Origin: Morinoia aosen
Lineage: Eukaryota > Arthropoda > Malacostraca > Amphipoda > Talitridae
NCBI GenBank assembly: GCA_030386875.1
Contig: CM059557.1
Span: 59,846,514-59,910,513 of the forward strand
DNA length: 64,000 nt
Reading direction: 5' to 3'
Made by a program: the position numbers and the translations under genes
The notes under the pieces: model-generated
Seen by the model: only the letters and a program-made list of their open reading frames with translations
Told to the model about the DNA's origin: nothing
The model's database searches: none
In this document: piece after piece, positions 1 to 62,068 of the stretch
Layout of the letters: every line of letters starts with the position of its first letter
Numbering within the stretch: position 1 is the first letter of the stretch

Positions 1-199
1 CAACGGTACCGCCGTAGTTCGGCACTAACAGAATTTACTTCTGTTGCCCTAGCGGACTGATTACGGCGTAGGTGGTACCCACACGAACCTCAGGAAGGGC
101 AGCTGCAAAGAAAAGCTAGCGCCCCGGAAAAAGGTAGCTGCACAGAAGACAGCCCCCTTTTCCACGAACCCTCACGTCGACCGCACAACGGTATCGACA
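1..199 (+). repeat. 3' part of the 5' LTR
   Basis: Nearly identical to 5690-5887. The window opens inside the last hairpin repeat unit of the LTR. The LTR ends at base 199 (..CGACA), five bases before the primer-binding site. Few differences separate the two LTR copies here, suggesting fairly recent insertion, although the coding region is already broken. Confidence 0.9.
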
Positions 200-204
200 T
201 ATTC

Positions 205-222
205 TGGCGCCCGAACAGGGAC
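205..222 (+). other. Primer-binding site, tRNA-Lys type
   Basis: TGGCGCCCGAACAGGGAC lies five bases after the LTR end. It equals the well-known site complementary to the 3' end of tRNA-Lys(UUU). Position and sequence together make this the minus-strand primer site. Confidence 0.85.
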
Positions 223-305: not shown

Positions 306-2261
306 ATGAACCTCGTCGCTCAAGCTCGAGAATACGTCGAAGCCCTCGGCCTCACTCCCACCGATGCGGAGTACCGGGAAGAATTTACCAGCCGCCTGAG
401 GCATTTGGAAGAAGCCGCAGAAAGAGCAGCAGAACGAGAAGCCGCAGAACGAGCAGCGGAACGAGAGGCCGCAGAACGAGCAGCGGAACGAGAAGCAGCA
501 CAACGAGACCACGAGCTCAGACTCCGACAACTCGATGCTCAAATCGCTCCTCAAAATGCTAGAGTGAAGATACCTCCACCGGCTCCATTCGATCCCACGA
601 AAGAAAGGATGGACAAATTTTTGCAACGCTTCTGTACTTACACCACAGCGATGGGATTTACTGAAGTCGATGCTGTTGTTATGCTCCATAATTTGATCAC
701 ACCGAAGGAACGTCGACTCATCGATACCCTGCCCGCAGCAGATCGCTTCAAGCTTCCTGAAATTAAATTGCTCTTACTAGATCCTCATAAAGTTACTCCG
801 GCAAAACTACGTGCCAACTATCACGAATTGAAGCCAGAAGAAGGCGACAATATATCACGTTACCTACGGCGACTCGAACAAGCCTTCGACGCTTGGTTAA
901 AAGGATGCAACATCGAAGCCAACTACAAGACTCTTCGTGACTTCCTTATTGTTGACCGAGCTTATTCAAGCTTGCCGCCCTTCCTCGCTACTCAATTGCG
1001 TGACAGGGGTGGTAACACAGTCGCAAGCCTCGGAGAGCAAGGTGATAGCTTCTTACAAGCAAGACCTCATACATCGCTCCATCAGCTTTGTAAGGGCCGC
1101 ACACTGACATCAACGACGGATGCGGGCCCTCCAGCACTCAAAGCATCAGTAGCACCAGAGCGACGCTCGACATTTCCTGTCCGAGCCCCGAGCACTCCAG
1201 CAAGATCACCCAACTCCAGCAACAACTCTCGAGGAACGCCGCCAAGAACGTCTAGCACACGTGGTGGTCCCACCAGCTCAGGATCGGTCAAAACTCCGCA
1301 GCGCGAACAACGAGGACCTTACAATGGATTTTACTGTACTTTTCATGGCCCCAACCGATCGTATTCCAGTGATGAGTGCCGCCAATTGCAGAGGAGGCAA
1401 GGTGATGGTCACAGTAATGGAGCAGCCCATGCAAGCCCACCTATCTCCAGTACTACCGCTCGAGTAAACAATCTAGCAACGCATGAAGAAGCAGAGGAAT
1501 ACGACGATATCCCTCCAGTAGCATGCAATCACATCGCCTCGAACAAGCTGATCGAATTGGGACAGCTGAAAACATGCTCCGGCACCGTGAACCAACAACC
1601 CGTTCAAGTACTACTCGATGGAGGAGCAACAGCGGTCTTCGTCAAGAAGGCTCTCGTCCCAGCTGACGCCATTTTGAAGAAAGAAATTACCGTTCGGCTG
1701 GCCAACAATCATTCCTTCGAGGCGCCTCTTGCCCGGGTCTCTCTCGTTTGCCCCTATTACCACGGAGAGGTGACAGCCGTAGCCATGGAAGAGCTCTCCC
1801 ATGATGTCATCCTCGGCCGAGTCCCCGGAACCACCTCCTTCGAAGAACATATGACCGACTATGAAGAGCAACCAGTTGCTGCAGAAGTCTCTCACGTTGT
1901 CACAAGGGCAGCAGCAAAAGCGATCGAAGATCCCCCTGCCGCACCAAGCACTGTCGATATATTGCAACACAACAAAGAAGACATCAAGAAATTACAGCGG
2001 GAGTGCAAAACATTGCAGCTTTTATTCAAGAAAGTTGACACCGGCAAAGAAGAAACGCACAAGGATGGCAGAGTCATTACCTTTGAACTCCATGACGGCG
2101 TTCTCCATCGGAAAACGTTACGAGACGGTCAGGAAACCCATCAACTTGTAGCCCCTGCAAGCGTGCGCCCACAAATCTTGGAAATGGCTCACGACATTCC
2201 ACTAACTGGCCATTATTCCCAAAAGAAGACTCAGGCTCGACTAGAACGAGATTTTTATTGA
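306..2261 (+). pseudogene. gag, aspartic protease and integrase zinc domain (first segment of broken gag-pol)
   Basis: ATG at 306 follows the primer site by about 80 bases. Residues 1-80 contain an Ala/Glu/Arg heptad-like repeat (units of AEREAAERA), probably a coiled coil. Residues about 90-260 are a gag capsid-like region. A Cys/His motif near residue 345 could be a modified nucleocapsid finger. The protease active site is LLDGGAT (Asp codon at 1617), in place of the usual D-S/T-G-A. The last 60 residues start the HHCC zinc domain of integrase (His pair in the AHDIPLTGH region). A TGA at 2259-2261 stops the frame inside this domain, and the partner Cys pair CHSC follows in the same frame. 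Gag identification is by position and character; protease and integrase assignments are by motif. Confidence 0.8.
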
Positions 2262-3044
2262 CCGTCCCTAGCAAAAGATGTGGCCCAATACTGTCACTCC
2301 TGTCATACCTGCCAGACGCACGCTCCATCTCGACCAAGAAAGGCACCTATCTCAACCCCACCGATCACCACTCCATTCTCCGCGCTAAGTGTTGATTTGG
2401 TAGGCCCATTACAACCAGTTTCGGCACGTGGCCACCGATACATTCTCACCGTGGTGGACCAAGCAACTCGGTACGCAGACGCAGCCCCGCTCAGACATGT
2501 AGATGCAGAAACAGTCGCCCAGGAGCTACTCGAAATATGCAGCAGAGTTGGTTTCCCTCACACGCTAACAAGCGACAACGGCACTCAGTTCACAGCTGCA
2601 ACCTTCGACGCTTTCCTGAAACTCGTCGGTATCCAGCACCGATTGACGCCATTATACCATGCCCAATCGAACGGCATAGTCGAACGCTTCAATGGCACGC
2701 TCAAAGTCATGTTGCGGAAATTAGCCGTAGAACAACCACGAGACTGGGACCTCTATCTGCCTTCCCTCCTTTTTGCTTATCGAGACGCTCCTTAGGCCTC
2801 AACCGGGTATTCTCCTTTCGAACTCATCTACGGCCATCGCGTCCGTGGACCTTTAACCGTGCTCAAAGAATGCTGGACAGAGGAAAGCTTGCAAGACGAC
2901 ACGAGCACTGCTCAGTATCTAATGGAAATGAAGCACCGATTGAAAGAAACATGTAAAATCGCTCGCGAGAATCTAAACAGGAGCCAAGAGAAAAGCGCCA
3001 AGTTATTCAACAGACGTACCAAGATGCGAACTTTAAAGCAATGA
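2262..3044 (+). pseudogene. Integrase catalytic core and C-terminal part (second segment of broken gag-pol)
   Basis: This continues in the same frame as the preceding segment. The zinc-domain cysteines CHSCHTC lie near 2293. The DDE core is complete: Asp at 2394 (VDLVGP), Asp at 2574 (TSDNGTQF) and Glu at 2682 (NGIVERFNG), with 35 residues between the second Asp and the Glu, the classic D,D-35-E spacing. A TAG at 2793-2795 breaks the end of the core and a TGA at 3042-3044 breaks the linker to the C-terminal module. A gypsy-type integrase would normally lie after RT and RNase H. Here it comes before them. Confidence 0.88.
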
Positions 3045-4783
3045 GATAAAGTCCTCGTATTTCTGCCCGATTCTCGAAAGAAGTTGCTTATGACTTGGAA
3101 AGGTCCCTATACAGTGAAATCACGCCTGGGAACCTATACCTATACATTGGACGTGGATGGAAACAACAAAGTTTATCACATCAACCTCCTTCGCCAGTGC
3201 CACGACCGGGAGCAGCAAAGTTCCGCCTCACCAAGCGAGACAGATCGCGATGAGGACGACGAGAGAGTAGAGGAAGCATTTGCAGCGGTTGGCCTCGCCC
3301 TAGAACCAACCTGCGAAGAAGAAGAACTCGACCGGAAAGAACCAGAGATACCATCACCCGTCGGAGAAACCATTGAAGACTGTCTCATCTCCTCTACGTT
3401 GACTACAACACAACGCTCAGAACTCCAGGAACTACTTGAAGAATATCGCGATCTTTTCACAGATACTCCCGGAATAACCAGCACGGCAGTTCATGAAATA
3501 AAATTGAAGGATCCTTCCAGTTTTCGACTTCAACATTCGTATCCACTTCCCTTAGCGCTGGAGCCTGAACTGCGGTCAAGTTTAGAGAAGTGGATGATGA
3601 TTGGAATCGTGACGCTATCCACATCACCTTACTATTCACCGCTCCTTGCCGTTCGGAAGAAAGACGGAACCCACCGATTTTGCCTGGACTGCAGGCACCT
3701 CAACAGCCAGACAGTATTTGATGCCGAGCCGATAGCAGACACCACTGCTATTTTCGCCAATTTAGCTGGCAAAACAATATTCAGCAAAATGGATCTGACC
3801 AGTGGATATTGGCAAGAACCTCTACACCCTGAGTCCCGCCAATACACCGCCTTCAAAACTAGGTCTGGCCTCTATGAATTCAACGTACTGCCTTTCGGCC
3901 TAGCAAATGCTCCAGCCACTTTTTCCCGCCTTACACGTCAAGTCACTGCAGGACTGCAAGATACCGAGGTCTACATGGACGACATCTTAATCGCCTCGAC
4001 AACCTGGGAAGATCATTGCACAGCATTAGCTAAACTGTTCGAAGCTCTCTCTCAACATGGCCTTAAAGCGAAGCCGTCCAAATGCGAATTCGGATTTGAC
4101 AGCCTCCGGTATTTGGGTCATCAACTGAGCAGTAATCAGATCCAGCCTCTGGAGAACCGAGTCGAAGCCTTGAAATCGGCTCCACTCCCAAAAACCAAAC
4201 GGGAGCTCCGAAGTTTTCTCGGTACAGGTGGGTACTACCAACAGTACATTCCTAACTACTCTCAACTGACTTCTAAGCTCCATGATTTCCTAAAGAAGAA
4301 TTCTCCGGAACAAATACCTTGAACCGATACAACAAAAGACCTGTTTGAAAGTTTGAAGACAGCGTTAGTCAAGAGACCGGTCTTACAGTTACCAGACTCC
4401 AGATGTCCTTTCATTTTGAGGACAGATGCCTCCCAAACTGGACTTGGAGCAGCTCTTCTCCAGCCAAGCAAACGACACTTCCGTCACTACGCGCCGGTAG
4501 CATATGCTTCACGTCAACTGAGAGGAGCAGAAATAAACTATTCTACCATTGAAAAAGAAGCGTTAGGCATCTACTGGGCTCTACAGAAGTTTGAGGTCTA
4601 CCTGTATGGACGAGAATTTGTGTTACAAACCGACCATCGACCTCTCCTTTATTTGCAACAGGCAGACAAGTTGAACCACCGATTGAAACGCTAGGCTTCG
4701 TATTTCAGCCTTTTCAGGTTCCGATCAGAACACCTTCCGGGAGCGACAACCACCTTGCAGATTTCCTGTCTCGGCTACCATAG
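3045..4783 (+). pseudogene. GPY/F module, reverse transcriptase and RNase H (third segment of broken gag-pol)
   Basis: The first about 70 residues are a GPY/F-like integrase tail (WKGPYTV; HINLLRQC). An acidic linker follows, then a Ty3/gypsy RT: AVRKKDGTHRFCLDCRHLN, FSKMDLTSGYWQ, FNVLPFGLANAPATFSR and the catalytic YMDD at 3972-3983. A TGA at 4320-4322 separates RT from RNase H, which shows Asp (RTDAS), Glu (IEKEALG) and Asp (TDHRPLL). A TAG at 4692-4694 follows, and near 4740 the frame shifts by one base. The final residues NHLADFLSRLP then end at TAG 4781-4783, just before the polypurine tract. This is a clear pol assignment; the gene cannot make a full product. Confidence 0.9.
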
Positions 4784-4805: not shown

Positions 4806-5887
4806 TGTCAGGCCGCACAGGGGTTTTCGAGCCTTTTGTGTTAGTTACCCATAATCTTAAGTATTTTCTTCATGTGTCCAGCTCTCTGAACGCCGACTTG
4901 CCTATTTCTCCGCGCTGATGTTGCGTTTGTGCATTTACTTTAGTTACCCCTTAAATATCATTTGTACTACATGTCGATATTCCAATGTTTCTTGTGTTAT
5001 CTAGCTAAATACGACTAATATTTTAAATGCAATTTTGAGTGTTGTACCCTGTTATGCAGTAGCTCACGTCTGTACGCACTATTTTTGTGATAGAAAATAA
5101 ATCACTGTCTTTGTTAAAATATATCAGTGTATGTAATAGGGACTTCAAAGATATTCAGCATTAAACAAGTCAGACCCTGAAGTCAAAAGAGTTTCCTTTC
5201 TCCTTAATGTCACAGGTTTTAGTCTCATACGACACCTCGCCTAAAAAGGGGTTTAAGGAGCAACCTCGGAAGGACAAACTATTTCGCATTGTAGGTCGAT
5301 TAGGAAGACGCTGTCGCAGTTCGGCACCAACAGAATTCTCTTCCGTTGCCCTAGCCGTCTCATACGGCGCAGACAGTTGCTCGTCTTCCTAACGGTACCG
5401 CCGTAGTTCAGCACAAAACGAAATTTACTTCTGTTGCCCTAGCGGACTGAATACGGCGTAGGCGGTACCCACACACACCCTTCACCCTAACGGTACCGCC
5501 GTGGTTCGGCACAAAACGGAATTTACTTCTGTTGCCCTAGCGGACTGAATACGGCGTAGGCGGTACCCACACACACCCCTCACCCTAGCGGTACCACCGT
5601 AGTTCGGCATTTAACAAAATTTACTTCTTTTGCCCTAGCGGACTGAATACGGCGCAGGTGGTACCCACACTAACCTCACCCACACACACAACGGTACCGC
5701 CGTAGTTCGGCACTAACAGAATTTACTTCTGTTACCCTAGCGGACTGATTACGGCGTAGGTGGTACCCACACGAACCTCAGGAAGGGCAGCTGCGAAGAA
5801 AAGCTAGCGCCTCGGAAAAAGGTAGCTGCACAGAAGACAGCCCCTTTTTCCACGAACCCTCACGTCGACCGCACAACGGTATCGACA
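4806..5887 (+). repeat. Complete 3' LTR (1082 bp)
   Basis: It starts TGTCA and ends CGACA, giving the usual TG..CA ends with a 4-base inverted terminus TGTC/GACA. The first 480 bases are AT-rich, with an AATAAA at about 5096. The second half holds five hairpin repeat units. The sequence beyond 5887 is Bel-Pao coding DNA. The partner 5' LTR is visible only as bases 1-199. Confidence 0.85.
5299..5783 (+). repeat. Tandem array of about 98-bp hairpin units within the LTR
   Basis: Five units start near 5299, 5392, 5490, 5587 and 5691. Each has a central conserved stretch (TTTACTTCTGTTGCCCTAGC or close) flanked by complementary arms. Units 2 and 3 pair GGTACCGCC with GGCGGTACC. Unit 4 pairs GGTACCACC with GGTGGTACC. 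Unit 1 uses an unrelated stem, AGGAAGACG with CGTCTTCCT. The arms change together, so the fold rather than the sequence is kept. The function is unknown. Confidence 0.85.
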
Positions 5888-6739
5888 GTCAGCTTTGATA
5901 ATTTTAACAACCCGGACCTTGCCATCGCGTCCAGGAAGCAGCGCGATGATACGGACTAAGGTCCAAAACGGTCTAGGTTTCATGGGATGCCTTAATAGGA
6001 CAACCTGACCTACAGACAAGAATTTATTATTAAGAGGTAAAGATTTAAGAGGATATAGACCTCTTAGGGTGATTAAGTACTGTGAGTACCATAGCTCCCT
6101 AAACTTGGCCACCATGACGTCACGCCTCTAAAGCGCGGAGAGCAGATGCTCTCGACGTTCATCGTCCTCGGTTTCCAAGTCAGGGACCTCATCGGAAAGG
6201 ATTAAAGCGTTAGAAGTAGGGTAAAGTTGAAGGAACTGAATAGGCATGATAGGCAAAATAGTGTCCCCCGTCTCTGCGTAAGAAAGAGGACGTCGATTAA
6301 GATTAAGAGAGATGTCAGAAACTGCAGTAAGAAAGGTAGAGTAAGGATAAGTGCTACGACCAAAGAGCTTGTACAAACTTTCCTTAATAGATTTAAACAA
6401 GCGTTCCCTGATCGCACCAAATTGTGCACTATAGATCGGGGTAATTTTAAATTTAATGGTAAAAGTGCGGAAACGTTCTTCATACAAGGAAGAAGTTAAA
6501 ACTTCTGCCAAAAGGTCAGAAGCAGCTACGAAAGTTTTAGCATTATCGGAATACACGGTGGTAGGGACACCCTTTTCGTTCGTGAAGCCAATGAAGGCGA
6601 AACAAAATTCTTCCAACGTCATGGATGGAAGAAGCTCTATATGAATAGATCTAGTTTGAAAACACGTAAAAAGTAAAAGACACACTTTTTGTTTATGGCC
6701 AAATGGATCTAACACCCAGAAATGAGCTGAAAAGTCCAT
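5888..6739 (-). pseudogene. Bel-Pao integrase core and C-terminal region, truncated
   Basis: The - strand frame from 6739 shows integrase features: YSDNAKTF (second catalytic Asp) and SAQFGAIRERLFKSIKESL, where the RERL Glu corresponds to the catalytic Glu. The first Asp region (DFSAHFWVLDPFG) looks altered. An in-frame TAG near 6125-6127 separates this from a Bel-Pao integrase tail (KFRELWYSQYL.. VGQVVLL.. RPFWTLVRI) that runs until the gypsy LTR begins. The first ATG directly follows an in-frame TGA, so it is not an authentic start but part of the polyprotein. Confidence 0.82.
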
Positions 6740-9406
6740 TCATGTTGTGGCGAAAGGTCTCACAAAATTAGTCCGACTATCTGGCAAAGCAGGCGGGCCA
6801 GGATAAGAGAAAGCCTTAGCGTTCACCCGCTTGCATACTATGCATTTGGATAGAACGGCACGCACAGTACGCTTACAGTGAGGTATCAAATAACCGTCCA
6901 TTTTAAGTTTTTGCACGGTCGATTCAACACCCTGATGATTAAGAGTTTTATGGGTATGCAAGATCAGAAGATAGGTTAGATGAGAAGAACTAGACAACAG
7001 AATAGGGTTCCTAGTGTTGTAATCCAATTCCTCCGCTAGGACAATGCGGCTGCTAGATCTAATTAAATTATGAGAGTCAAGAAACAAGTTGAAAGATCTA
7101 ACAAGCAAAGGCGGACGAGGATTCTTGGTTTCCAAGGCCTCTATCTCGCTGGCAAAATGCTCTCTTTGCATAGAGGAAATGAGGTAAAGAAACGCTCGCA
7201 GTTTAGACTCCCCCGGATCTGTGCGCTTCCAGGTTGCTACGGCCCTAAATACCTTCTCCACCGCACCCAACAGCTTTGGGTAGGAGGAGAAGCACTCAAG
7301 CGTTACAATAGAAGCTTGACCTGGGTGAGCAACATTAGCTGCGATACATGTGTCAGAAACAAATTGCTGCGGAATGCATCCTAAGCGACCCTTAGGCCAC
7401 TTATCTCTACTTTCTCTGAACCAAGAAGGACCTTCTAACCATAACAATTTATTCACTAGAAATTTAGATACCTTAACACCCTGCGTCAGCATGTCTGCAA
7501 CATTAAACATCGTGGGCACGTACTCGTAACTAAAGGCATCCAAGGCCTTACACTCAAGCTGCTTACGCATGGCTTCTATGTCTTTTATCCTGTTGTTTAC
7601 AAATACATTTTTTCGAGGAGGTTTACCGCTGAATAGCCAAGCTAGGGTGACATGTGAATCAGTAAGAATAGTTACATTAGCCCCTTTATAAGGAAAATTA
7701 ACATCACACAGAAGAGATACAAGACATTGATAGGCAAGAAACACTGCCAAGAGCTCGAGGGAAGGAAGAGTTCGCTGGCGAGAAGGCGAAACTTTAACTT
7801 TAGAGAAAAGTAATGCGCTGCGATCCTCTTGGACGCCATAGATACAGGTACCAAAGACGCTAGCACTAGCATCACAGAATACAACAAGTTGGGTAGTTTT
7901 AGTCTCAGCCAAAGTCATCCTAGGAAACTCGTAATCCCTCAATTCCGAAAACTCCAGACAATATTTCTGCCATTCATTACATAAGTCTTCCGGAACATTC
8001 TGATCCCAACTTAGCCTCAAGGGCGTCAATTTTCCCAAAATAATCTTACCTGGCACAGAAAAGTGCAACAAAATTCCCAAGGGGTCGTAAATGGACGCTA
8101 CTTCAGAAAGAATTTTTCTACGTGTTTCACAAGAAGAGTCCAACCTTTTAACAGACTGAGAAAGAAGATCAGTAGAAGAGTTATAGTCGTACCCTAGCAC
8201 TCTGGAGTGCACCTCGGCACTACACAGAGCAGGGTCAATTTGGGAAAGAAGTTCAGAATTATTGGACTTCCATTTGCGTAACGGAAACCCACTTTCCTCA
8301 AATACACTGTTGGCTCTGCGAAAAGTGCACAGCGCCTGTTCAGGACTCTCAGTAGTGAACACTAAATTATCGACGTATAGCTTATTCGCCATAACGTCTC
8401 TAACTGTCAAATCAGTAATAGTTTGAGCGTGCAATTTGAGCAGATAGTTAAGAATATAAGGCGATGCAACAAACCCGAACAAAAGAGTTGTGTAACGGTA
8501 ATACAAAAATTTGCCATCCTTGAAAAGGATGAAGCTAAACTGATTGCGGTCAAAATCACAAGCCTGCAAGAAAACTTTAAAAATGTCAGAAAGAACCACT
8601 TCGGTATTTGCACGGAAATAGACCAAAAGTCCTAACAAATTATTCATGAGATTAGGACCCACATAAGAGGCTTCGTTCAGACTGGGTAAACCATCGACCT
8701 TTAAAGAGCAACTAAACACAGGACGAATTTTAGAAGTTTCTACATGGGTACGTATTACAGGCCTATGCGGGATCCATTTGTGAGCTCGCACATCTCTCTT
8801 TTTGACGGATATGGGTTCAATGATGCCCAACTCAAGCTGCTCAGCGAATACGTCATTATAGGCCTGTTCAATCCCCTTTAGGGCATTATCAGTCGCTACT
8901 TTACGAGCAAGATATTTTGCTAATACGAAATTGTTAGGCACTCTAGCCAAAAGTTGGCGATTCCAGGGCAACTGGACAGAATATTTACCTTCTTCAAGTT
9001 TAACACTACCTTTAAAATCTTCCAATTCCTTATCATTCTCTTCCTCCTTAGAGGGTATACCAATAAGCTCAAGATCAAGCAGCTGATCAAGTCCAGTCTG
9101 AGCTACGCACTGCTCAGAAATGTCCAATAATGATGTACATACTTTAGGAGTTTCAAAGAAACTATTTAAAATATTACGGTAACGATTTTCGTTCAACTTA
9201 CATTTCGCAACTTTCCTTTTAGTTTTCACTTTAGTTTCATTGTCAGAATACAGAGAAGGTTTACATAATTTAACATTGATATTTCTTTCAACGGAAGTTT
9301 TAAGATCATTAGTTAGCTTCTTCGTTTTAGAAGCAACAAAAGAAGATAAAGAGGAGTTGTAACATTTTAACTCCCCAAAGGGTAGAGACCCGTTAGAAAT
9401 GCGCAT
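6740..9406 (-). pseudogene. Bel-Pao reverse transcriptase, RNase H and integrase zinc domain
   Basis: An 888-residue open stretch. RT lies at about residues 200-400: IRPVFSCS, LPSLNEASYVGPNL, VVLSDIFKVFLQ, FGFVASPYILN and YVDN near residues 344-347. The second Asp of the usual YVDD box is Asn here, which should abolish polymerase activity. RNase H follows at about 505-600 (VVFCDASASVFG; LPSLELLAV; ILTDSHVTLAW). Near residues 800-870 there is an integrase zinc domain with H..H and CIVC. It is in a different frame from the upstream protease, with the shift near 9410, so it is not translated as part of an intact polyprotein now. Confidence 0.88.
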
Positions 9407-9435
9407 GGTCTTATAGCCATTAACGTGCTATAAGT

Positions 9436-9846
9436 CTAGACGTTAAAAGCTTGAAGAGCATCTACACCCAAAATTCCGCGAATTTGGATGCTATCACTTA
9501 TAACTTCCGGATAGGAAGTCGACAAAGGAAGTTTAGTTTTTAAAATTTTGAGTTTATCATTCAAATTTCTCATACTCATTTGGAGGTTTGAATTTCTCAT
9601 AGCGAAAACATCAAGCTCATGCTTCTCACTGTCCGGAGGCACGAGTTCAATGCTAATTTGCTTACCAATTACAGGAACAGAAGCACCCACTGTGTTAATA
9701 GTTAGCTCCTGCAAGTCTACATCAGAATAGTCGGAACCCACAGTCTCCAAATCAATAAGCGACGACTGACTGCCGCTATCAATTAGAAAATCAACACGCT
9801 TAGTTACCCCACCATACTTGGTGGTAAGAGCAACAAGAGGGCACAT
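9436..9846 (-). pseudogene. Bel-Pao aspartic protease
   Basis: A 136-residue stretch containing FLIDSGSQSSLID (retropepsin D-S-G) and ending GILGVDALQAF, the downstream conserved G-x-D region of Bel-Pao peptidases. It is in frame with the upstream gag segment but separated from it by a TGA near 9861-9863, and it ends at TAG just before the frame change into RT. Confidence 0.8.
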
Positions 9847-9867
9847 CCTTAGACGTGCCTTTAACCG

Positions 9868-11143
9868 TCATGAGGAGGTTGCAACAAAGGCACTGGATTC
9901 AATAAATTTAGGACACAAAGGGCTAACATGATTGTTTGCTTTACACAAAGAGCACAAGAACGGGAGACCCTTAACTTTGGAGGGACACGCACTTGACAAA
10001 TGCTTACTACTTAAACAGGTAGAACATAATTTCAATTCACCAGCCCGTTTCACACGCTTTTCGTGTGAATTAAATCGCTTGCATGCAAACGAAGCGTGGT
10101 TAGCTTCGTTACAGAAGCGACATACCTTAACATCGGGAGACTTATTAGGTTTAGGTAAATGTGGCGTTTTGTCCCTCACCTCAGTCCGGGTCACCAGTTC
10201 TGTTTCCTTACTACGGAATACATGAGACGGTTTGGATTTACTTTTGGTTTTGAGAAGAGAAAGCACTTTATGAGCATTCTCAAACATCTCCAAGGAAAAG
10301 AAACTCGCTTTAAAATAGCGAAGGAGTTCCAACAGGAAAAATTCAGGAAGTTTAGTTTTAATTACAGCAGAAAACAGAAGGTTACCCGATTTCTCATTAG
10401 AGAAATCCAAGCCCAACTTGGAAAGCTCAAGAAGGCGAAAATTAACCCTAGAAAGGAAAGAATTTATTTCAAATAGACTCTGTACACTGGGACAGCTCAG
10501 GATCTCATCAAGAGCTAATGAGATTAATATATCAGCGTTAAAAAAATCTTGCTTAAGCAATGCCCAAGCAGATAGAAAACTAGTTTCTTCGTTAGGAAGT
10601 CCCTCTATAAGACTGAGAGCTCTTCCTTGAAGCTGATTTTTGGGGAAGATAAATTTTTATTTCTCACTCATGTTAGGATAAGCCTGAAGGGCATTAGAAA
10701 AGGACTCTTGAAAGTGAAGGAAGTTGAAAGGGCACCCCTCATTGTCACTGAATTTTTTCAGTGTCAACTGAGGAGCTTTAAAGATATTCAATGGAACATC
10801 AGAAGTAGAAACCTTAGACATAGAAGGTGCACCGGTAGCACTAGAGTTTAGCACCGGGGAAGTGGAAAGGAGTTTTTTAAGTTCTACAATAAGTTCTATG
10901 ACCTGAACCTCATACTCCGACCTCCTAACCAGCTCCTCCTCAGAAACCTCACTAACATCTGAAGGAATAGTAGAGGACAGAATTCGAAAGGAATGGAACA
11001 GCCCACTTAATTGAGGAACAGCTTCAATAATAAAGGCCGGATCACAGTTAGGAGCAAGAGCTTTTTTTCAGAGATGTAATGCTACACTTCATGCCCCGCA
11101 ATTTAATGCTTAAGGCTAAGGCAGTACACTTTTCTGTTTCCAT
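9868..11143 (-). pseudogene. Bel-Pao gag with zinc knuckles
   Basis: The likely start is ATG at 11143. The frame slips in an A-run near 11065, runs on to an in-frame TAA near 10660, and continues to 9868. The middle part carries a Bel-Pao gag signature (FSDNEGCPFNFLHFQESF; LSLIEGLPNEETSFLSAW). The C-terminal part has three zinc-knuckle-like clusters: CRFCNEANHASFAC, CSTCLSSKHLSSAC and CSLCKANNHVSPLC, all spaced C-x2-C-x4-H-x4-C. Nucleic-acid binding during particle assembly is the expected role. It is broken, and no full-length product is possible. Confidence 0.8.
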
Positions 11144-28876: not shown

Positions 28877-29359
28877 TTTCTCCGTTGGGTATAGGAGAAA
28901 AATTCCAAGCACAATACCCCACTCTACCCAGGTGTCTGACCCTCCCAACCTCCCCCTACCTTATTGTGGTGGGAGGGTTTGCGTGCTGTGAGGAAGGGTG
29001 AGGCTATGCTGTCAGGACTTTATGTCCTGGTGGGTTCAACCGTGGCAGACAGGCTCACCTGGAGCAGCCAGACAAAGTGGGGGGCCATGGGAAGGCCCCC
29101 ATGTAAATAAAACCGGACCCCGGCAGTTACGGGTGATAAAGCCCCTGTTACCCCGGGCGTACATAGGGGCTGCCACGGGCCGGGGTCGACGGTGGGAGGG
29201 ATTTTCATTCCTATTGGTCAGTGTGTGCCCGCCTTAAACGCGGAGACGCGTCAGTAGGGGGGGTTCTCTTCCGGCCTGGATAGGTGGGGGGAACCCTCAC
29301 TGACAGGAGTCTCCTAAACACTTGAGCTTGCTTTTTCTTCTAATACTTTACCTACTTCA

Positions 29360-31243
29360 ATGTTGACGACACGGCCCTCACAAATGGACACACTCACTGG
29401 AATTCCCTCTCCTGAACCCGGTAAACGAGTCGTACCGTCATCTCAATTTCCTGTAGGTGGCGAGGGGACAGGCTGGCGTGACGGAAGTGCAGAGTGGACA
29501 ATGCAGCCATATGAACCACCCAGACCTTCGAGACCTGCCGAGGCCTCATCTGATGGCCGAGCGCCGGGAGCAGGCAGAAGGAAAAACCGTCGTTGGCAAC
29601 GTCTGCCCTCGGCGGTAGAAGATGAATTGCCTGCCGTGGAATACAAAAAGTTCTTTGTAATAAAAGCCAACGATAACTCCCCTATGGCTGAAGTGGACGT
29701 CGCGAAAGCCTACAGAGAAATATGTCACCGACTCGGGGGTGAACCCACTAAAATTAATGAAGTCCGTAACGGCAGCGAAGTCAAGAATCTTCACCAGAGC
29801 CCCTGCATCACCACCATTAAGTCTCTTGCTGGAGTGGAGGTAACAGTATCTCCGAATGAACGCCTTAATCAAACGAAAGGAACAATCTGGTATAAGAACA
29901 GCCCAAGGTACACAGACGCTCGTATCTTGGAGGAGCTGGAGCGATTCGGCGCCAAAGAGGTATATTGCTTCAAAAGGAGAGAGAGAGGTGTGCTAACTCC
30001 AGGTCGAGTATACCTCATAACTTTTGATCGTTGTAGGCTGCCCGATACTGTGTCAATCGGGTGGACGCGATGCCAGGTGCGCCAGTACGTGCCGAGACCG
30101 AGGCGCTGTTTTAAATGCCAGGCCTTCGGACACGGCGCCAAAACCTGCCGCGCCCAGCAAGGCACATGCGCAAATTGCTCAATGGAGCAACATGAGTCGC
30201 CTTGTGTCCGACCTGCGAGAGGCGCCAACTGTGAGGGTGCGCATCCAGCCAGCTCCACATCATGTTCCCACTATGAGATTGAAGCAGAAATCCTCGCAAC
30301 TCAGGTGAGAGAGAGCATTAGCTATGGAGAAGCCAAGAGGACGGTGACATCCAGGTATGTTTCTCCCCGCACTTCTTACGCTGACGCCGCCTAACACCGT
30401 AGACTGAACTCTCAGCCAATTTTTCGGCAACCTGAGGAACCGCACTCGCGGAGTGTGGCAGCACGGCGAGATGAGCAGGAGCCAGAGCCTTTGAGCCCTG
30501 TGGATGCCTCTGCTCTGAGAAGCCAGAGTCTGGCCCAGAGGCCTCCAGTGCGCGTGACCCAACCTTTGGCTCAATCAGGACCCTCTAATAAGGAAATTTC
30601 AAAAGATCCAGCTTCCACCACTCACCAGGAAGATTCATCTAACGAACAGTTTCAATCAATCCCCTCAATTATTACCTCCCGCAAAAGAACTAAAAGCGAC
30701 ATATCGCCCCCACAAGATGGAAAACGAACAAAAACTCCGAAAACACTGAGATTTATGGAAGACACCCCAGCAGACAATCAAGGCCAAGCTATCCCGAGTC
30801 AAGAGAAGGATCCTGTCAGGGATTCAGTGGCTACAACCGGTGGAAGGGCAGAGCACGAACGCAGCACTGTGAGGGAGTCTCGGTCTGCCGTGCGAGGGCC
30901 CAGCCGTGGAGACAAGCAGGAAAGGGGATCCGGGCGTGACTTGTCGCTACCGACCAAAGAAAAGAATAGCTCCCACATTGACAGTGAAAAGCAGCGTAAT
31001 ATTGTTACCCAACGCATTCGTTCTTTAGAGCGGGTCACGACCGTCCCAAAAGAAGTAGCATCACACCTGTTAAAAATCTTCCCACCTCCAAAAAACCTCC
31101 CCACCGTGCCTCCTCCGGCAGTACCTGTCCACCCGTGGATTGACCGACCTCCTGTCTCTACGTCACCCGGACTGGCGTGTGCTGCAGGTGAGGGAATTGA
31201 AAAGGATCCTACGTATATAACATCTAAAACTGACAAGAAATGA
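29360..31243 (+). pseudogene. NLR-1 ORF1 (Gag-like nucleic-acid-binding protein), one in-frame stop
   Basis: The reading frame from ATG 29360 is open to TGA 31241-31243 apart from a TAA at 30392-30394. Before the stop lies a domain resembling other non-LTR ORF1 proteins (residues about 100-230), then zinc knuckles: CFKCQAFGHGAKTC, CANCSMEQHESPC and a damaged third cluster around NCEGAHPASSTSC. After the stop the chain is Pro/Ser/charge-rich and low in structure. ORF1 products bind element RNA and act in particle formation and nuclear entry. The final TGA overlaps the ORF2 start (ATGA), suggesting reinitiation. Confidence 0.82.
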
Positions 31244-34200
31244 ACACCTTCTTACAATGGAATATACGTGGCTACAGACGGAATTACGGAGACTTGAGAG
31301 CACTTCTGGAGAGGCACCAGCCCTGTTGTGTTTGTCTGCAGGAAACACTGCTGGGGAACGTTACCCCAAGGCCTCCAAGCAACTACAATATAGAGTTGTT
31401 CTCCCCAGTGCCCAACCCGGTACCAGGAACGGGACTGGCGGTGCTTGTGCGGAGAGACGTTGGCTACAGTAGATTTGCGGTAAACACCAGGCTGCAGGCT
31501 ATCGCTTTCCGTGTCTACATTGGGAAACGTATGATAACAGTATGTAACATCTACATACCACCAGGCGAACCCTTAGCCCTGCAAGATCTCAGCCTCTTGA
31601 GCAATCAACTCGCGAGGCCGGCCTTGATCCTGGGAGACGTCAATGCCAAGCACATACTTTGGGGAAACGTCCAGAGCGATCGTCGAGGTGAAATTGTGGA
31701 GGACTTCATCGTCGCTTCTGATTTTTGTCTTCTGAACACCGGAGCCCCCATGCATTTTCACGTGCAGACTGCGACTTCCTCCGCCATCGACCTGAGTCTT
31801 TGCACTCCCGACATCCTTTCCGAATTCCGGTGGTCCGTGAGTGGCGATGCACATGGTAGTGATCATTACCCCGTCTTAATGCACTCGGTCCAAAACCAGC
31901 AGATGCTGATAGAACCAAGGTTTAACTTCAAAAAGGCCAACTGGAGAAACTTTGGAGCGCTGACGACAATGGAGGACCCAAATGAAGCTCATGGCGTAGA
32001 TGAATTGGTTGACAGCTTTGTGAGTACAATGCACGAAGCCGCCAACAGTGCTATTCCAAAGTCTAAAGGCGGTTGCCCAGTGCACCGCGTCCCGTGGTGG
32101 AACAATGACTGCCAGGCCGCTAATATCGAGAGGAAACGCGCATTGCGACGATACCAAAGAACAAAAGAACTAGCTGACAAGATCGCATACAATCGGGCTA
32201 GAGCGCGAGCTCAGATTATAAAAGACGTCGCCCGTAAGGTATCGTCTCAGAAATACGTCTCCACTCTCAACAGCGATACTCCTATGGCCAAGGTATGGCA
32301 GCTAGTCAATAAAATGAGGGGAAAATGCAGTTATAGACAGCCGTGCCTAGAAGTTAATGGTGTTCTCACCTCAGACCCCGTCCCCGTCCAATCTGGCAGT
32401 CGGCAGCTTCGAGGGACCACAGACGCTCTGCTCCGCTTACAGAACCACCTGGTAGCCAACCTTGCCGAGCGTCGCCGAACCATGTGTCTTTTCTTCGATA
32501 TGCATAAAGCCTATGACACCGTGTGGAGATATGGAATACTTAAGACACTACACGAGTATGGACTCCGTGGTAACATGGCCCTGTATATTCGAGAATTTCT
32601 TGGTGAAAGAACTTTCCGCGTTAAGGTCGGCGGCACCCTCTCTTCCTCGCAGTTGCAGTGTGAAGGTTTACCGCAGGGCAGTGTTATGAGCTGCACCCTG
32701 TTTAGTGTCGCCTTAAATGGTATCACCTCCACCTTGCCTCCCGGAACGGTGGCCTCCTTATATGTGGACGACTTTATGGTATACTCTTCATCAACACATT
32801 TTCCGGCTCTGACGCGAAGAATGCAATTAGCCATCAATAACGCTAATAAGTGGGCTCAGGAACATGGCTTCAACTTTTCACCGGAAAAAACCGTTGGACT
32901 TTACTTCCAGGGCCGTGGCCGTAGTGATCCCCCACAGCTCACACTGCAGGGAAGACAAGCGAGTTTTCCACACAGCGCCAAGTTTCTGGGGGTGACGCTT
33001 GATGACAGGCTCTCTTGGAAGCCCTACCTAGCCACTCTCAAGGCTGACTGCGTCAGAAGGCTGAACTTGCTAAAAAGCCTGGCCGGCCTGACGTGGGGGG
33101 CTGACAGGATGACCCTACTGAGACTATATCGTACTCTTATTAGAAGCAAAATAGACTACGGCTGCATTGTGTATCAATATGCTAAGGCGACTTCACTTTC
33201 GAAGCTGGACCCTGTGCATCATGCTGCTATCAGAATCTGCACTGGCGCGTTTAGGTCATCCCCTTCCAGCAGCTTGTGTGTGGAGAGCGGTGAACCTCCT
33301 TTACGGCACCGCCGTGTGCAGCTGACCCTTCAGTACTTGGCGCGGTTGGAACAAGTCCCCTTGTCTCCTGCATGGACCAGCGTGCATGCGCCACTAGGCC
33401 GACATCTGCCTTTCCCTCACTTTCTGCCCTCATCGGAAGATTATTCGGCAGTCGTGGCTGCAATGCAGCTGAGGCCAATGAGAATACAACCAGTGTTCTT
33501 GGAAAATTTTCCCACGTGGCGTGTCCCAATCGGGAGTTTTTGTCCGGGATGTCAAATGCCTAAGAAGGATTCTATGCCTACACACATACTAAAGGGGATC
33601 TTTTTGGACCATATTGCCGAAAAACATGCCCGTGCGATGAAGTTCTATACCGGCGGCTCAAAGGTGGGAGACGCTGTGTCGGGGGAGTTGGTGAGCGCCA
33701 AGAGATTGCTCCCAGAGTCGTCCATTTTCACTGCGGAACTCTACGGTGTGCTGGAGGCCCTCCGACTAATTAAACATTGTGTGTATGATACTTTTGCTAT
33801 TTTTGTGGATTCAAAAAGTGTGGTGGAGGCCACTCGAGAGCATAATAGTACCCATCCGCTCGTTGGTGAAATCGTCATGGACTTAATAAATTTAACACGT
33901 GAGCGTAAATCTGTGACGTTGTGCTGGGTGCCCGGCCACGTAGGAGTGTCTGGCTATGAAAGAGCTGACCAGGAGGCTAAACAGGCTGCAGAGGCAAACG
34001 AAGAGACTCTAAATCTGATGGTTCCTTTCCGAGATTATTACCCTCGGATCAAAGCGGCAGTGAGAGAACGATGGCAGCAGGAATGGGACAACGCTGCTAA
34101 CGATAGCAATAAATTAAGGAGCATTAAACCCACTATACGTGAGTGGATATCGTCCAGTTGTCGTGGTCGCCGGTTAGAGGTGATGCTTTGTCGCCTCCGT

Positions 34201-34467
34201 ATTGGCCATACGCGGCTAACACACGGCCACCTGATGGAGCGGCTACCACAGCCGCAGTGCGAACGGTGTCGTGTGCCTTTGACTGTAAAGCACTTCCTCG
34301 CGGAGTGTCCCCTGAATGCTGTTGCCAGGAATCTGCATTTTCCGTACCTTCGCGGTTGTGCACAGGATGTTTTGACCGGAATACCTGGGGAGGCTGAGCG
34401 GTCAACTTATAATGTGACAGCGCTGCAGTCGTTTATTGGAGCGTGTAATCTGTCTTCAAAAATCTAG
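31240..34467 (+). pseudogene. NLR-1 ORF2: APE endonuclease, partly deleted RT, RNase H
   Basis: 1075 residues, open throughout. Endonuclease is at 1-225: QWNIRG, LQETLL, GDVNAKHILWG, SAIDLSL, SDHYPVL. RT motifs resume abruptly near residue 383: QSGSRQLRGTTDALLRL, FFDMHKAYDTVW, GLPQGSVMS, and YVDD near residue 508. Compared with NLR-2 ORF2, about 180 residues of the RT fingers are missing without a frame change (junction about 32385-32392). RNase H (from residue 800) has YTGGSK where the family has TDGS: the first catalytic Asp is Gly (codon 33652-33654). A C-terminal C-x2-C..H..C finger (CERC..HFLAEC) is kept. The product could still be made but should not polymerise. Confidence 0.88.
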
Positions 34468-35803: not shown

Positions 35804-36154
35804 CAGTCTATAGACAAGGATATTTGATAAGGATTACTTGTCCATAACAAGTATTCCAGCCCACCCACACCTTCCCGTGGTGGTACCGTTAATATACCCA
35901 CTAGGAGTTGCAACTCATTACATATCGTTTATGTAAATTGGCAACATAGTGATCATAAGCTTATTTATACGAGTGTTGTCCGTGGGTAGAACCAACGTGG
36001 GGGGCGCCCACTAACATCTGGGTCTTTTATCTTTAGTTTTGTATGTTTATCTTGAACCTGTGTTTTGAGCATTGAATAAAACTCGCATATCGCCAGTAAA
36101 AAGGAAACATACACCCCTGGTCCCGGTGGCCTTGTGCCCCGAGGACCAGGCGAT

Positions 36155-38569
36155 ATGAGGAGGGGCGGTGGAGGCCCGCGGCCTAACCGGGGACGCACCG
36201 GGAAGGACCAGAAGCAGCGAGCGAAGGAGCCAACAAAAGTGACGACCCAGCCAAATGAAGTAAAATCTATCAGGACACCAATCGCCGCAATGACAGGCGA
36301 GCCAGCAAGTGTCTGTACAACTACGTGTGGATCTTCACTGATGGCAACGAACCATACAGCTCATAATGGAGAGCACCAAAAAAATATCACCGACCGCATC
36401 ACCAACATAGAGAGGAACCTTAACCAGTTGGTTAGATCGATGAGCAGGGTGTTACCGGATCGTGACATCTCGAAACTGAATACCGAAGACAGTAACTCTG
36501 ACATACCCCCAACCTGCATCGAGGAAAGAATTAAAAACCTGGAAAACACCGTCGAGGAAGTAACCCAAGCTCTATCAGCCCATTTGTCACCTCCGGAGGA
36601 ACAAGGGAAGGTGACCCAGAGTGCGAGACATAGGAAGAAGAACAAATTTGTCCCTCTCAATGTTACCGAACAGCCACCACAGCGGAGCTTCACACGCTTC
36701 TTTACCATGAAGTTTACACCCGAAACAAAACGTAAGATAGACCCCTACCTGGTGAAAAACGTAATTCGCTCAGCCACCGGATCTCCGCCCAAATCTATCA
36801 CCACCAGTGGAAGGGAGAGCTTCACACTCGAGGCCAGAGACAACAGGCAAGGCCAGGCACTGTTGACCATCACTAATATAAACGGAGTGCCGTGTGAAGT
36901 CTTCGCCCACCCAAAACTCAATAAATCCAAGGGACTCATTTATATCAACGAATACAACATGGAGAACTTCAGCGAATTCGAAACTGGACTCAAAGAAAAC
37001 TATAACATCAGCGAAGTAATTGACGCCACCTTCATCAAGACAAGATACGAAAAAACAAGCGCGATAATTCTAGAATTCAAATCAGAGTCTCCCCCCGATT
37101 TCATATACATTCCCGGCGAACGATCAGACACCCGAGTATACCCATACATCGACAAACCAATGCACTGCGCCAACTGCCAGATGTACGGACATACCAAAAA
37201 GCGTTGCAGCCGAGCCACAACCTGTGGAAGGTGCGGGGCGGTGGGGCACGGCAGCAGTCAGTGCCTTGCCTCTGAAGCCGAATGCATCCACTGTCACGGC
37301 CCTCACCAAGTTAAAGACAAAACCTGCCCAAAGCAAATCGAAGAGGAACAAGTACTTACAATCCAGAACAACCACAAGGTCGGGAAGCGCCGTGCTAGAC
37401 AGATGCTGAACAGCCCAACTGAGTCAAATGGAAAACACGCCCCTCCCTACGCCACTCACTTCAAATGTACTTTGGACTCTAATGAAAAGCGCAAAATTTC
37501 ACCCTGGGCGCTCGAGCGAAGCCTTCAACTTGAGTTGGGTGAAAAGCCAAAGAGAATTACATCACAGGATAAAGACTCGTATATCATTGAAATTGCCACC
37601 AAAGAACAAAGTACCCTAATCCGTAATGTAAAAACCTTAAACAACATCCCTGTCTCCATAGCTGAACACCCTTACTTCAACTCAGTGAAAGGCCTCATAT
37701 GTCTATATGAGTACGACCTCTCCAATTTCGAGTGCTTCCGGGACGGACTCATGGAAGACTACAGACTGAGTGATGCAGTGAGAGCTACCTGGATCAAACC
37801 GAAAAACCCTGTCTCCCAAGCAATCTTACTTACATTCAGGCAAAACCTCCCTAACTACATAACCATACCCGGAGAACAATCACTAACCAAGGTATTTCCA
37901 TACGTGCCGCGCCCCATGTTCTGCAAGAAATGTCTGGAGTATAACCACACCCAGAAACGATGCACCAGGCCTGAAACGATATGCGCGAGATGCAACAATG
38001 TAAACCACGATTCCGGCGAATGCACGAGCATCAAGATAGAATGCCACAAATGCGGCAAAGACCACTTCGCAGGCTCCTATAAATGCATTGAATTCAAGTA
38101 CCAACAGGAAATCCTTGCAATCCAGCACAAATACAAACTGAGCAGAGTGCAAGCAAGACAAAAGCTGGAGAGTGAACAACACCAATATCACAGGAACTAC
38201 GCTTCTGCCGTAACATCTACCGCTGCACAAACACCCAGCCGACAACCTCCAACACCGATTAAACAAGTGGGGACAGCTCCTCCAGCTCTTCCACTAGGGC
38301 CCTCTCAGCTCTCAGACGGTACGCAAAGGAAAAGAAAAAACTCTGAAAGCAACGAAAAACCATCAGGAAAGAAGCAGGTAGCGGAAGCAGTCTACGCTGA
38401 TCCAAGCACAGGAGAAATATTTTCTACCCCAGTACAAATTACACCAGATTACGACTCGGCAATGAGCGACAGCGAAATTACAAGTGAGAACAACCCGACC
38501 GTTAGAAGCGAAACCAGAAGAATTTATAACCAGTACCAAAAAGAAGTCAAAGGAAACCAAAATGAATAA
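36155..38569 (+). CDS. NLR-2 ORF1: Gag-like protein with duplicated zinc-knuckle module
   Basis: I take ATG 36155 as the start (804 aa); an upstream GTG is in frame but less likely. Residues 1-175 are Arg/Gly-rich, then low-complexity with a predicted coiled stretch. Module 1 (about 176-422) and module 2 (about 429-672) align with each other: a globular part ending in YIPGERSDTRVYPY or TIPGEQSLTKVFPY, then three knuckles. Knuckles 1 and 2 are C-x2-C-x4-H-x4-C (CANCQMYGHTKKRC, CGRCGAVGHGSSQC; CKKCLEYNHTQKRC, CARCNNVNHDSGEC). Knuckle 3 is C-x2-C-x3-H-x6-C in both. The tail is Pro/Ser/Lys-rich. The expected role is binding of element RNA. Most relatives have one module, so the tandem duplication is unusual. 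Confidence 0.9.
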   Translation: MRRGGGGPRPNRGRTGKDQKQRAKEPTKVTTQPNEVKSIRTPIAAMTGEPASVCTTTCGSSLMATNHTAHNGEHQKNITDRITNIERNLNQLVRSMSRVLPDRDISKLNTEDSNSDIPPTCIEERIKNLENTVEEVTQALSAHLSPPEEQGKVTQSARHRKKNKFVPLNVTEQPPQRSFTRFFTMKFTPETKRKIDPYLVKNVIRSATGSPPKSITTSGRESFTLEARDNRQGQALLTITNINGVPCEVFAHPKLNKSKGLIYINEYNMENFSEFETGLKENYNISEVIDATFIKTRYEKTSAIILEFKSESPPDFIYIPGERSDTRVYPYIDKPMHCANCQMYGHTKKRCSRATTCGRCGAVGHGSSQCLASEAECIHCHGPHQVKDKTCPKQIEEEQVLTIQNNHKVGKRRARQMLNSPTESNGKHAPPYATHFKCTLDSNEKRKISPWALERSLQLELGEKPKRITSQDKDSYIIEIATKEQSTLIRNVKTLNNIPVSIAEHPYFNSVKGLICLYEYDLSNFECFRDGLMEDYRLSDAVRATWIKPKNPVSQAILLTFRQNLPNYITIPGEQSLTKVFPYVPRPMFCKKCLEYNHTQKRCTRPETICARCNNVNHDSGECTSIKIECHKCGKDHFAGSYKCIEFKYQQEILAIQHKYKLSRVQARQKLESEQHQYHRNYASAVTSTAAQTPSRQPPTPIKQVGTAPPALPLGPSQLSDGTQRKRKNSESNEKPSGKKQVAEAVYADPSTGEIFSTPVQITPDYDSAMSDSEITSENNPTVRSETRRIYNQYQKEVKGNQNE

Positions 38570-41500
38570 CGGAATCTGCATCCTACAGTGGAACTGCCAG
38601 GGTGTTCGAGCCAAAAAGAGCGAACTTTTAGAACTAATTAACTTGCATAACCCATATAGTGTTGCTCTCCAAGAAACTAAACTCTGGCACAACTCAAATT
38701 TTTCCATACCCCATTACAATCTACTAACCAAACATGGCCACTTTAACGTCACGCCTCATGGAGGAGTCGGACTGCTTATTCATGAGTCAATTCCATTCCA
38801 AGAAGTCACCATAACTTCTGCCATCCAGGTCATCGCAGCCACTGCCCACATCACTCGACGGATAACATTTGCGTCGCTGTACACCTCAAGAAGCCACCCC
38901 ATAACCCAGGAAATAATGAACGAACTAATAAATCAACTACCTCCGCCAATCATTTTGATGGGGGACTTCAACAGCTATAGTACAACTTGGGGTTGTGAAA
39001 CGACAGATGCCCGTGGCCGGATAATAGAAGAATTTATAGACCAACATAACCTAACTCTCCTCAACACAGGAGCACACACACGAGTTTCTTACAACTCTGA
39101 GTCCGCCATTGACCTAACCCTGGCATCTCCTCGTCTGAGTGTGGACTTGGTATGGGAGACTTGTAGATCTCCGGAAGACAGTGACCATATTCCCATCATA
39201 GTACGACTAATTAATGCACAACGTAACGATCAGAAACGCTCAATGTGGAACAACAAAAAGGCAGACTGGACGTCTTACGAGGCGCACCAAAACTGGGAAA
39301 AACTTAAAATCTCTGACGAGCATACATGCTCTGAAGCCCTCAGCACCTTTATCGACACTTTAACAGCAGTTGCAAACGATTGTATTCCAACCATAGAACT
39401 CACAAAATTCTTTCCGAAGCCCTACTGGAGCGCGCAGCTGACACAAACACGCACCAACCGCGAACGCCTCTATCAAAAATTTAGGCAAACAAAATCTGCA
39501 CAAAATGCCCTACGCTGGAAAAGAGCCAGGGCCATCCACAGAAACCTTCTGCGAGAGGAGAAGCGGAAGGCATGGACAGCATTCACCAGCACATTTACGA
39601 AGAACACGCCAATGACCCGTATTTATGAAAACATCAGAAAAATTAAAGGCAGACCTCAAAGACAGTTGTCAATATTACAAGAAAATAATATAAGCTACTC
39701 TACCGTTCCAGAAATAGCAAACAAATTAGCAGAAACATTTAGCTCAGTTAGCAGTGCGACGAATTACCCTCAGGAATTTTTACGAAGAAAACAACGTGCA
39801 GAAACTAACCAATTGGACTTCTCATCGGACAACAACGAAACATACAACATCGCATTCTCCCTCGCCGAACTGGATTCTGCCTTGGAGACTACGAAAAATA
39901 CATCACCTGGTGCAGATGGAATTTCATACCAAATGCTCAAGCACCTTCCAGAAATTGGTAAACAAAACTTACTGTTTCTCTACAACAAATTATGGCTTCA
40001 TTCGTATTACCCGGCTACCTGGAGAGAAGCAGTAATAATCCCTTTTCAAAATCCTGGAAAGACCCCACATTCGCCTCACAACTACAGGCCAATTGCGCTC
40101 ACGAGCTGCATCGGGAAGGTTCTGGAACGCCTCATCAACAATAGACTCATCGACTATTGCGATATGCACGGCCACCTCAGCAATATCCAGTGCGGGGGTC
40201 GCCGGGACAGGTCCACCGTTGACCACCTAATCCGTCTCGAAACCATTATCAGAAACTCCTTTGTCCACAATGAACACTTCGTTAGTGTCTTCTTCGACCT
40301 CAAAAAGGCATATGATACCACCTGGAACTACGGCATTATGCAAGACCTCCATCATCTACATCTCCGGGGAAGACTGCCTCTATATATCCAAGAGTTTTTA
40401 CGGGACCGTACCTTCAGGGTACGAGTAAATAACCACCTATCCAATCCATGCCCTCAGGAAGAAGGGGTCCCACAGGGTTCAGTTCTTTCCGTCACCCTCT
40501 TCATTATCAAAATCAATGAAATAGCTTCACAGATCCCTAAAGACCCACGTTTCCATGCATCACTATATGTAGACGATTTCCAACTTGGCTACCGACACAG
40601 TGACATCAGCATCATTGAAGCCAAACTTCAAGAATGCATCAACAGAGTGGCACTGTGGACGCAAAACAATGGATTTTCCTTCTCGATGGATAAATCTAAG
40701 GCTGTCCATTTTACCTCCCTTCCAGGCCTTCAAGTACCACCTACCCTGAAAATCAGCAACAAAACCATCGAATTTGTGGACGAAGTTAAGTTTCTTGGGC
40801 TCACGTGGGACCGAAAATTGACCTGGAAAACCCATATCAACAACATCAAATCAAGCTGCAAGAAGAACTTCAACATAATCAAATCAATCTCTTCCCACGA
40901 CTGGGGTGGAGACCAGAACACTCTACTCCACTTGTACAGAGTATTCGTCCGATCTAAACTGGACTATGGCTGCATCGTGTACAGCTCCGCTGCAACATCA
41001 ACACTCAAACTTCTGGACCCCATTGTAAACGACTGCCTACGATTTGCAACGGGAGCATTCAAATCAACACCTATTCCCAGTCTACAAGTCATCTCCGGCG
41101 AAATGCCCCTCCAGCTACGAAGAGAGCAACTTTCGCTGAAATACTACTTGAAAATAAGAAGCCACTTGTCCAACCCAGCCCGCAATTTGGCTATACCACC
41201 TACCAACTGGAGACTGTTTGTAAACAAGCAGCTCACGCCGTCTTTCGCTGTTCGCACCCACGAACTAATTGAAAACCTTCAGCTTCACCAACTGCGGATA
41301 AAGCCCTCGTTCTCGTACCGATTGCAAAACGTCGATGTACCCACATGGAATACTATCCCAGCAGACGTGAACCAGGACCTAACCTTCTACAAGAAAGAAT
41401 TCACCCACCCAGCCTTATACGTCCAGGAATACCAGAGGCTGCGACGGGAGGAATACCGAGGATACATACCGATATTTACGGACGGCTCTAAATACGACGA

Positions 41501-61432: not shown

Positions 61433-61526
61433 ATGTTCACTTTTGTGTCCTGTTGCGCAACATCAGAAGTGACAAACTTGGGTGCATTTTGTGCTGAAAG
61501 CCTTTTAGCGCAAGTAATGAAAGGTT

Positions 61527-62066: not shown

Positions 62067-62068
62067 GA

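Follow-up and report, generated by a model that had tools for sequence, protein, structure and literature searches.

The window analysed here is the 64,000-nucleotide stretch of the Morinoia aosen assembly at positions 59,846,514 to 59,910,513 of contig CM059557.1 (forward strand), and positions below are counted from its first letter. Its first 5,887 bases hold all but the start of a Ty3/gypsy-type long terminal repeat (LTR) retrotransposon, in which the integrase lies ahead of the reverse transcriptase (RT). The features of the element and of its insertion site are as follows.

1 to 199, plus strand: 5' LTR, the last 199 of its 1082 bases; it starts 883 bases upstream of the window, and 195/199 positions are identical to 5689-5887
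205 to 222, plus strand: primer binding site, 5 bases past the LTR; one exact occurrence in the window
306 to 1500, plus strand: gag, open frame; SCAN-like capsid region at about 810-1058, finger-like motif near 1335
1578 to 1817, plus strand: aspartic protease, LLDGGAT at 1611; gag-asp_proteas at E 1.3e-4, below the Pfam cut-off, together with the motif
2154 to 2327, plus strand: integrase zinc-binding domain; Integrase_H2C2 on both sides of the interrupting stop at 2259
2373 to 2792, plus strand: integrase core, D2394, D2574 and E2682 with a spacing of 35; rve at E 8.9e-15
2796 to 3041, plus strand: integrase C-terminal stretch; an open piece with no Pfam match, 37-39% identical to the corresponding place in loci L172-L175 of the same genome (see below)
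3069 to 3203, plus strand: GPY/F-like module; SH3_Tf2-1 at E 5e-4, weak and below the cut-off
3486 to 4319, plus strand: RT, YMDD at 3972; RVT_1 at E 9.6e-30, closest solved relative Ty3 RT (E 6e-53)
4323 to 4783, plus strand: RNase H; RT_RNaseH at E 1.9e-31, interrupted by a stop (4692) and a shift of frame
4806 to 5887, plus strand: 3' LTR, TGTCAG...TCGACA, with four 98-base tandem units at 5388-5783
5888 to 5892, plus strand: probable target-site duplication, 3' copy GTCAG; the 5' copy is ATCAG, and 4/5 bases agree
5888 to 10656, minus strand: BEL/Pao element, the insertion target; DUF5641, rve, Integrase_H2C2, Peptidase_A17 and DUF1759 along the minus strand

Between the LTRs the domains are arranged as gag, protease, integrase of the D,D-35-E type, GPY/F-like module, RT and RNase H, the order that had been proposed in a sequence-only reading of the window. 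The corresponding motifs were located at 1611-1631 (LLDGGAT), 3096 (WKGPY), 3972 (YMDD) and 4422 (TDAS of RNase H), with 35 residues separating the last two members of the integrase triad (D 2394, D 2574, E 2682). Pfam matches follow one another in the same direction, as aspartic protease (below the cut-off), Integrase_H2C2, rve, SH3_Tf2-1, RVT_1 and RT_RNaseH, and chance matches are excluded for integrase, RT and RNase H because of their E values (9e-15, 1e-29 and 2e-31, respectively). The GPY/F-like module was aligned by HMMER to the C-terminus of the Ty3 integrase, where the match was not significant. As judged by sequence, the gypsy-type RT and RNase H, combined with an integrase that has both the H2C2 domain and the D,D-35-E triad, are those of a Ty3/gypsy element. 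The end of pol near 4780 lies 25 bases 5' of the 3' LTR, and therefore no space is left for an integrase at the usual position.

The same reading had described a frame running through from gag to RNase H. Three-frame translation gave one reading frame in pieces, namely gag-protease (300-2258), integrase (2262-2792 and 2796-3041), GPY/F and RT (3045-4319) and RNase H (4323-4691), interrupted by in-frame stops at 2259, 2793, 3042, 4320 and 4692, and the final RNase H piece (4595-4780) sits in a different frame. The window copy is therefore dead, having both a frame change and five stops in frame. The extent originally assigned, 306 to 4783, covers the coding part; the element itself is larger, as it begins with the 5' LTR 883 bases before the window and ends with the 3' LTR at 4806-5887. 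Including the preceding genome sequence, the two LTRs are 1082 bp each and share 95.8% identity (45 mismatches and no gaps in 1083 aligned columns), and the whole element measures 6,770 bp (883 + 5,887). The primer binding site is complementary to the 3' end of what we take to be tRNA-Lys(UUU). The four tandem units inside the LTR carry inverted ends, and their folding was not clearly better than that of shuffled sequences (z −0.17 to −1.82).

Further copies were sought in the assembly containing the window (1.99 Gb in 29 contigs). One of the 13 contig ends examined carries (TTAGG)n, presumably an arthropod-type end. The host markers 7tm_6 and His_binding gave no match, and neither did their controls. 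A search with the integrase piece gave 16,864 first-look candidates, 150 of which were scored, all at 96-99% identity. Intact copies had been called for as a check on the original proposal, and 62 of the 150 scored matches lie within open frames of 1,480-1,571 codons, a share that does not apply to the whole genome because the scored copies are those most like the window. Loci were then cut out for 8 integrase and 30 RT matches, and the window's own two (L075 and L083) were left out of the count. Integrase precedes RT on the same strand in all of the other copies examined (36/36), and RNase H follows RT in 29 RT loci, all of those reaching that far. Had no other copy shared this order, the sequence-only reading would have been refuted. 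Some of these 36 copies are broken too, and in L087 the gag-protease piece is reversed. In the stretch 331-900 of L080 the finger-like motif of gag reads C-x2-H-x5-H-x4-C and not CCHC; the motif of the window copy is different.

LTRs and target-site duplications were inspected in 20 copies hand-picked down the integrase list. LTR pairs were found in 17 of them, 14 aligning over 958-993 bases at 94.7-99.9% identity and four of these exceeding 99%; the fully aligned LTRs are thus about 100 bases shorter than those of the window copy (958-993 vs 1082). The 17-base core of the primer site was present 2-6 bases past the aligned LTR end in 13/20 copies, and exact 5-base duplications were detected by script in 12/20, with one more (L131/L132) added by eye. 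LTRs beginning with TG and ending with CA, a primer binding site and a short target duplication are the structural marks of a Ty3/gypsy element, and all are present here.

Codons differing at a single position were counted between copies as nonsynonymous/synonymous changes. This gave 1120/1166 for integrase (27 copies), 1650/3228 for RT (29 copies) and 673/752 for RNase H (29 copies), corresponding to ratios of 0.96, 0.51 and 0.89 where 2.22, 2.33 and 2.17 would be expected under neutrality. The copies were picked by RT similarity, which may favour conserved RT, though not integrase or RNase H directly, and the pairs compared are not independent. All three domains are under purifying selection.

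As controls for the domain order we used 74 loci, 73 from public contigs and one from a plasmid record. Both RT and integrase matches were obtained in 37 of them, with RT first in 35/37; 20 more had RT without integrase and 17 no match. L016 is integrase-first only in appearance, since it consists of parts of two elements (RNase H before integrase), and in L066 RT and integrase lie on two strands. Another gypsy family from the window's own genome, represented by one locus (L167), has the order RT, RNase H, integrase. The plasmid record (L074, NZ_CP087956.1), 5.3 kb long and filed as a Wolbachia plasmid, encodes a gypsy-type protease, RT, RNase H and integrase; it is probably moth DNA.

The gag of the window copy pointed to a particular set of relatives. 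SCAN was the top Pfam hit for three window gag cuts, all below the cut-off (E 0.064, 0.089 and 0.22), and the gag pieces of five other copies gave SCAN in three cases (E 0.016, 0.13 and 0.24), only PNMA in one and no domain in one; comparison of a gag piece with PDB gave no match. A SCAN search of the genome yielded 359 candidates, and the 150 matches scored were all above the Pfam cut-off (best E 3e-11), some of them in frames of up to 1,475 codons. No SCAN match was obtained in any of the 14 control genomes. When 100 of the 101 control frames were scanned, SCAN was not among the 25 families listed of 82, and therefore at most one control frame matched it at E<=1. The count of at least 150 SCAN matches in this apparently arthropod genome is one of domain matches, gag or host gene alike.

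Eight SCAN loci were examined, including four (L172-L175) chosen for their long frames out of eight asked for. In each of these four, one uninterrupted frame of 1,207-1,267 codons leads from SCAN through integrase, the integrase C-terminal part and RT to RNase H. Their aligned DNA pieces are 66-71% identical among themselves. The window integrase matches them at 42-46% identity (156-166 bits; best control 125), the window RT at 36-40% (225-263 bits; best control 201), and the window gag or gag-protease at E 4e-19 to 6e-6. In L168 the integrase follows gag at the end of the locus. In L169 (C19) and L171 (C21) everything from SCAN gag to RNase H is spanned by one frame, 727 and 734 codons long, respectively; L170 lies on C10, and several other genomic SCAN matches are in frames about 727-734 codons long. 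The family of L169-L171 looks like a non-autonomous deletion derivative that has retained RNase H.

RT and integrase trees were built with 38 rows each, after L016, L066 and loci with short matches had been dropped. In both, the six integrase-first rows (the window, its sister copy L084 and L172-L175) form a group against the 32 others, with support of 100/99 for RT and 76/82 for integrase; the RT group was present in 100% of 200 bootstrap trees. The two trees are congruent, so that RT and integrase do not fall in unrelated clades, the outcome by which the sequence-only reading was to be judged, with the reservation that the relatives in both trees are the SCAN-gag, integrase-first families of the same genome and that no row is a named Gmr1, Mag, CsRn1, Osvaldo or copia element. 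A kinship to the conventional element L032, seen in earlier trees, vanished once the SCAN-gag relatives had been entered.

We therefore interpret the window element as a dead member of a Gmr1-like family of Ty3/gypsy LTR retrotransposons that is present in high copy and was recently active, with a probability of about 0.9. Recent activity is suggested because LTR pairs are up to 99.9% identical. In the open-frame copies, gag, protease, integrase, RT and RNase H are encoded in this order by one gag-pol about 1,500 codons long. As in other LTR elements, the LTR would drive a full-length RNA, whose reverse transcription would presumably be primed by tRNA-Lys; the protease may then free the enzymes from the polyprotein, and the integrase would insert the cDNA with a 5-base target duplication. 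Going by the order and by the RT and integrase trees, this gypsy-type element of copia-like order is best placed among the Gmr1-like elements, in line with what was first suggested.

Several observations weigh against this interpretation, besides the choice of copies behind the share of open frames. The LTR pair is absent in 3/20 sampled copies and partial in three (285-585 bases, 89.4-99.0%). The family's own gag matches SCAN below the cut-off only (E 0.016-0.24, 4/6 pieces), and SCAN was not listed by Pfam for a longer window gag cut (306-1100). Three of the eight SCAN loci (L169-L171) have no integrase or RT match at all, protease being followed by RNase H. The integrase grouping is not strongly supported, and the first trees, made before the SCAN-gag relatives were included, put the window weakly beside L032, an element of conventional order (RT 81/71, integrase 84/52). 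Finally, the tie to Gmr1 derives from domain order, SCAN gag and the literature and not from comparison with a named Gmr1 sequence.

The position beside L032 in the first trees and a tie to Gmr1 drawn from other evidence than a named sequence, together with the below-cut-off gag and an RT identity to the SCAN-gag families of 36-40%, would suit an independent move of the integrase within arthropod gypsy elements that are not related to Gmr1, the alternative that the sequence-only reading had offered. We consider this improbable, as RT unites the window family with the SCAN-gag, integrase-first families at 100/99 and in every bootstrap tree, integrase agrees at 76/82, and the window gag is similar to the SCAN gags. 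Still less probable is that the integrase-first order arose repeatedly in gypsy elements while a SCAN-type gag spread separately by recombination: the modest support of the integrase group would allow it, but RT, integrase and gag all indicate the same relatives. That two elements recombined at the locus, or that one inserted into the other, to give a chimera, or that the assembly is in error, might be read from the five stops and the frame change, but can practically be dismissed in view of the single LTR pair and single domain set, the pol end 25 bases short of the 3' LTR, the integrase-first order of all 36 other copies and the congruent trees.

Within the Gmr1-like interpretation, we tentatively propose, at somewhat less than even odds, that an integrase-first pol together with a SCAN-type gag makes up a single ancient package, borne by animal Gmr1-like elements from before the split between deuterostomes and protostomes. 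The genome would then hold at least five integrase-first families, four of them with clear SCAN gags, and the window's family would be a sister lineage with a far-diverged capsid, undescribed within the literature searched.

The remainder of the window contains other mobile elements. The long open frames of two LINE-like elements (29318-34467 and 36080-42299) encode endonuclease, RT and RNase H. Transposase pieces occupy 57836-60449 on the minus strand, with Pfam TNP-like RNase H and insertion domains in 58728-60449, and we take them to be P-element/THAP-like. A stretch of short-unit repeats at 61336-62144 is open in several frames on both strands.

No relative was confirmed in IMG/VR when it was scanned with RT, with integrase and with an RT/Ty3 alignment; a degenerate RT pattern retrieved six viral contigs, none of which (0/6) matched the window's pieces, and phage records gave no RT match and 11 weak integrase matches, several of them annotated transposases. 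Plasmid records gave three RT matches, one being L074, and 2,057 integrase matches, mostly bacterial transposases among the 20 listed.

Among known systems, Ty3 has the closest solved RT (E 6e-53), and its integrase also matches (E 5e-17). The order of the two is opposite to that in the window, since in the single Ty3 polyprotein the RT match (584-852) is followed by the integrase (1129-1308). Ty1/copia elements share the window's domain order, but membership in that group was rejected, as the window RT, RNase H and integrase have their best Pfam and PDB matches among gypsy- or retrovirus-type models and structures.

Gmr1-like elements (Gmr1 of Gadus morhua and others from fish, frogs and a tunicate) are described with the order protease, integrase, RT, RNase H, the same as in Ty1/copia (PMC2582038), and this order is common to the window family. 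For fish Gmr elements one gag-pol frame, of 1,506-1,634 amino acids, and LTRs of 337-518 are given (PMC11117352); the window family likewise has one gag-pol frame, about 1,500 codons long, whereas its LTRs are longer, at about 980-1,080 bp. A single long gag-pol is not exclusive to Gmr1, being given as 1,330-1,365 for Mag in the same source. The SCAN domain is reported to derive from the gag of Gmr1-like elements (PMC3424704, PMC4592553), in frogs SCAN is reported in over 50% of Gmr elements only (PMC4131045), and in one paper the SCAN gene family is called vertebrate specific. A SCAN gag above the cut-off is present in the window family's relatives, while the family's own match stays below it.

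A report of 2013 relates four elements from crustaceans to Gmr1 (PMC3587641). The names given there are GyRex4, GyRex5, Gychoro2, GyMaja1 and GyLiva4, arthropod elements related to Gmr1 by RT/RNase H (GyRex5 by integrase). They are described there as separate RT/RNase H and integrase fragments, whereas in the window family the order is seen within whole loci, and the two are likened by description only. LGF3 of the annelid Lamellibrachia luymesi, from another phylum and likewise compared by description, was assigned to Gmr1 in 2021 from trees of RT, RNase H and integrase (PMC8220671). Going by these two reports, the range of Gmr1 is therefore not widened by an arthropod member, as had been supposed. 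A literature search pairing Gmr1 with tick found no paper.

What is new here is that an apparently arthropod genome holds integrase-first families whose frames are open and whose gags are of the SCAN type. Since SCAN-type gags are found there, this type of domain would be older than the vertebrates, unless it moved horizontally, and they are relevant to where the SCAN domain of vertebrates came from, a domain that the literature derives from a Gmr1-like gag. The many open-frame copies under selection show a gypsy element thriving with its integrase ahead of RT. The kind of element is known, and the window lineage, standing well apart from its relatives in the same genome, is probably a new member of the Gmr1-like elements, diverged and present in high copy.

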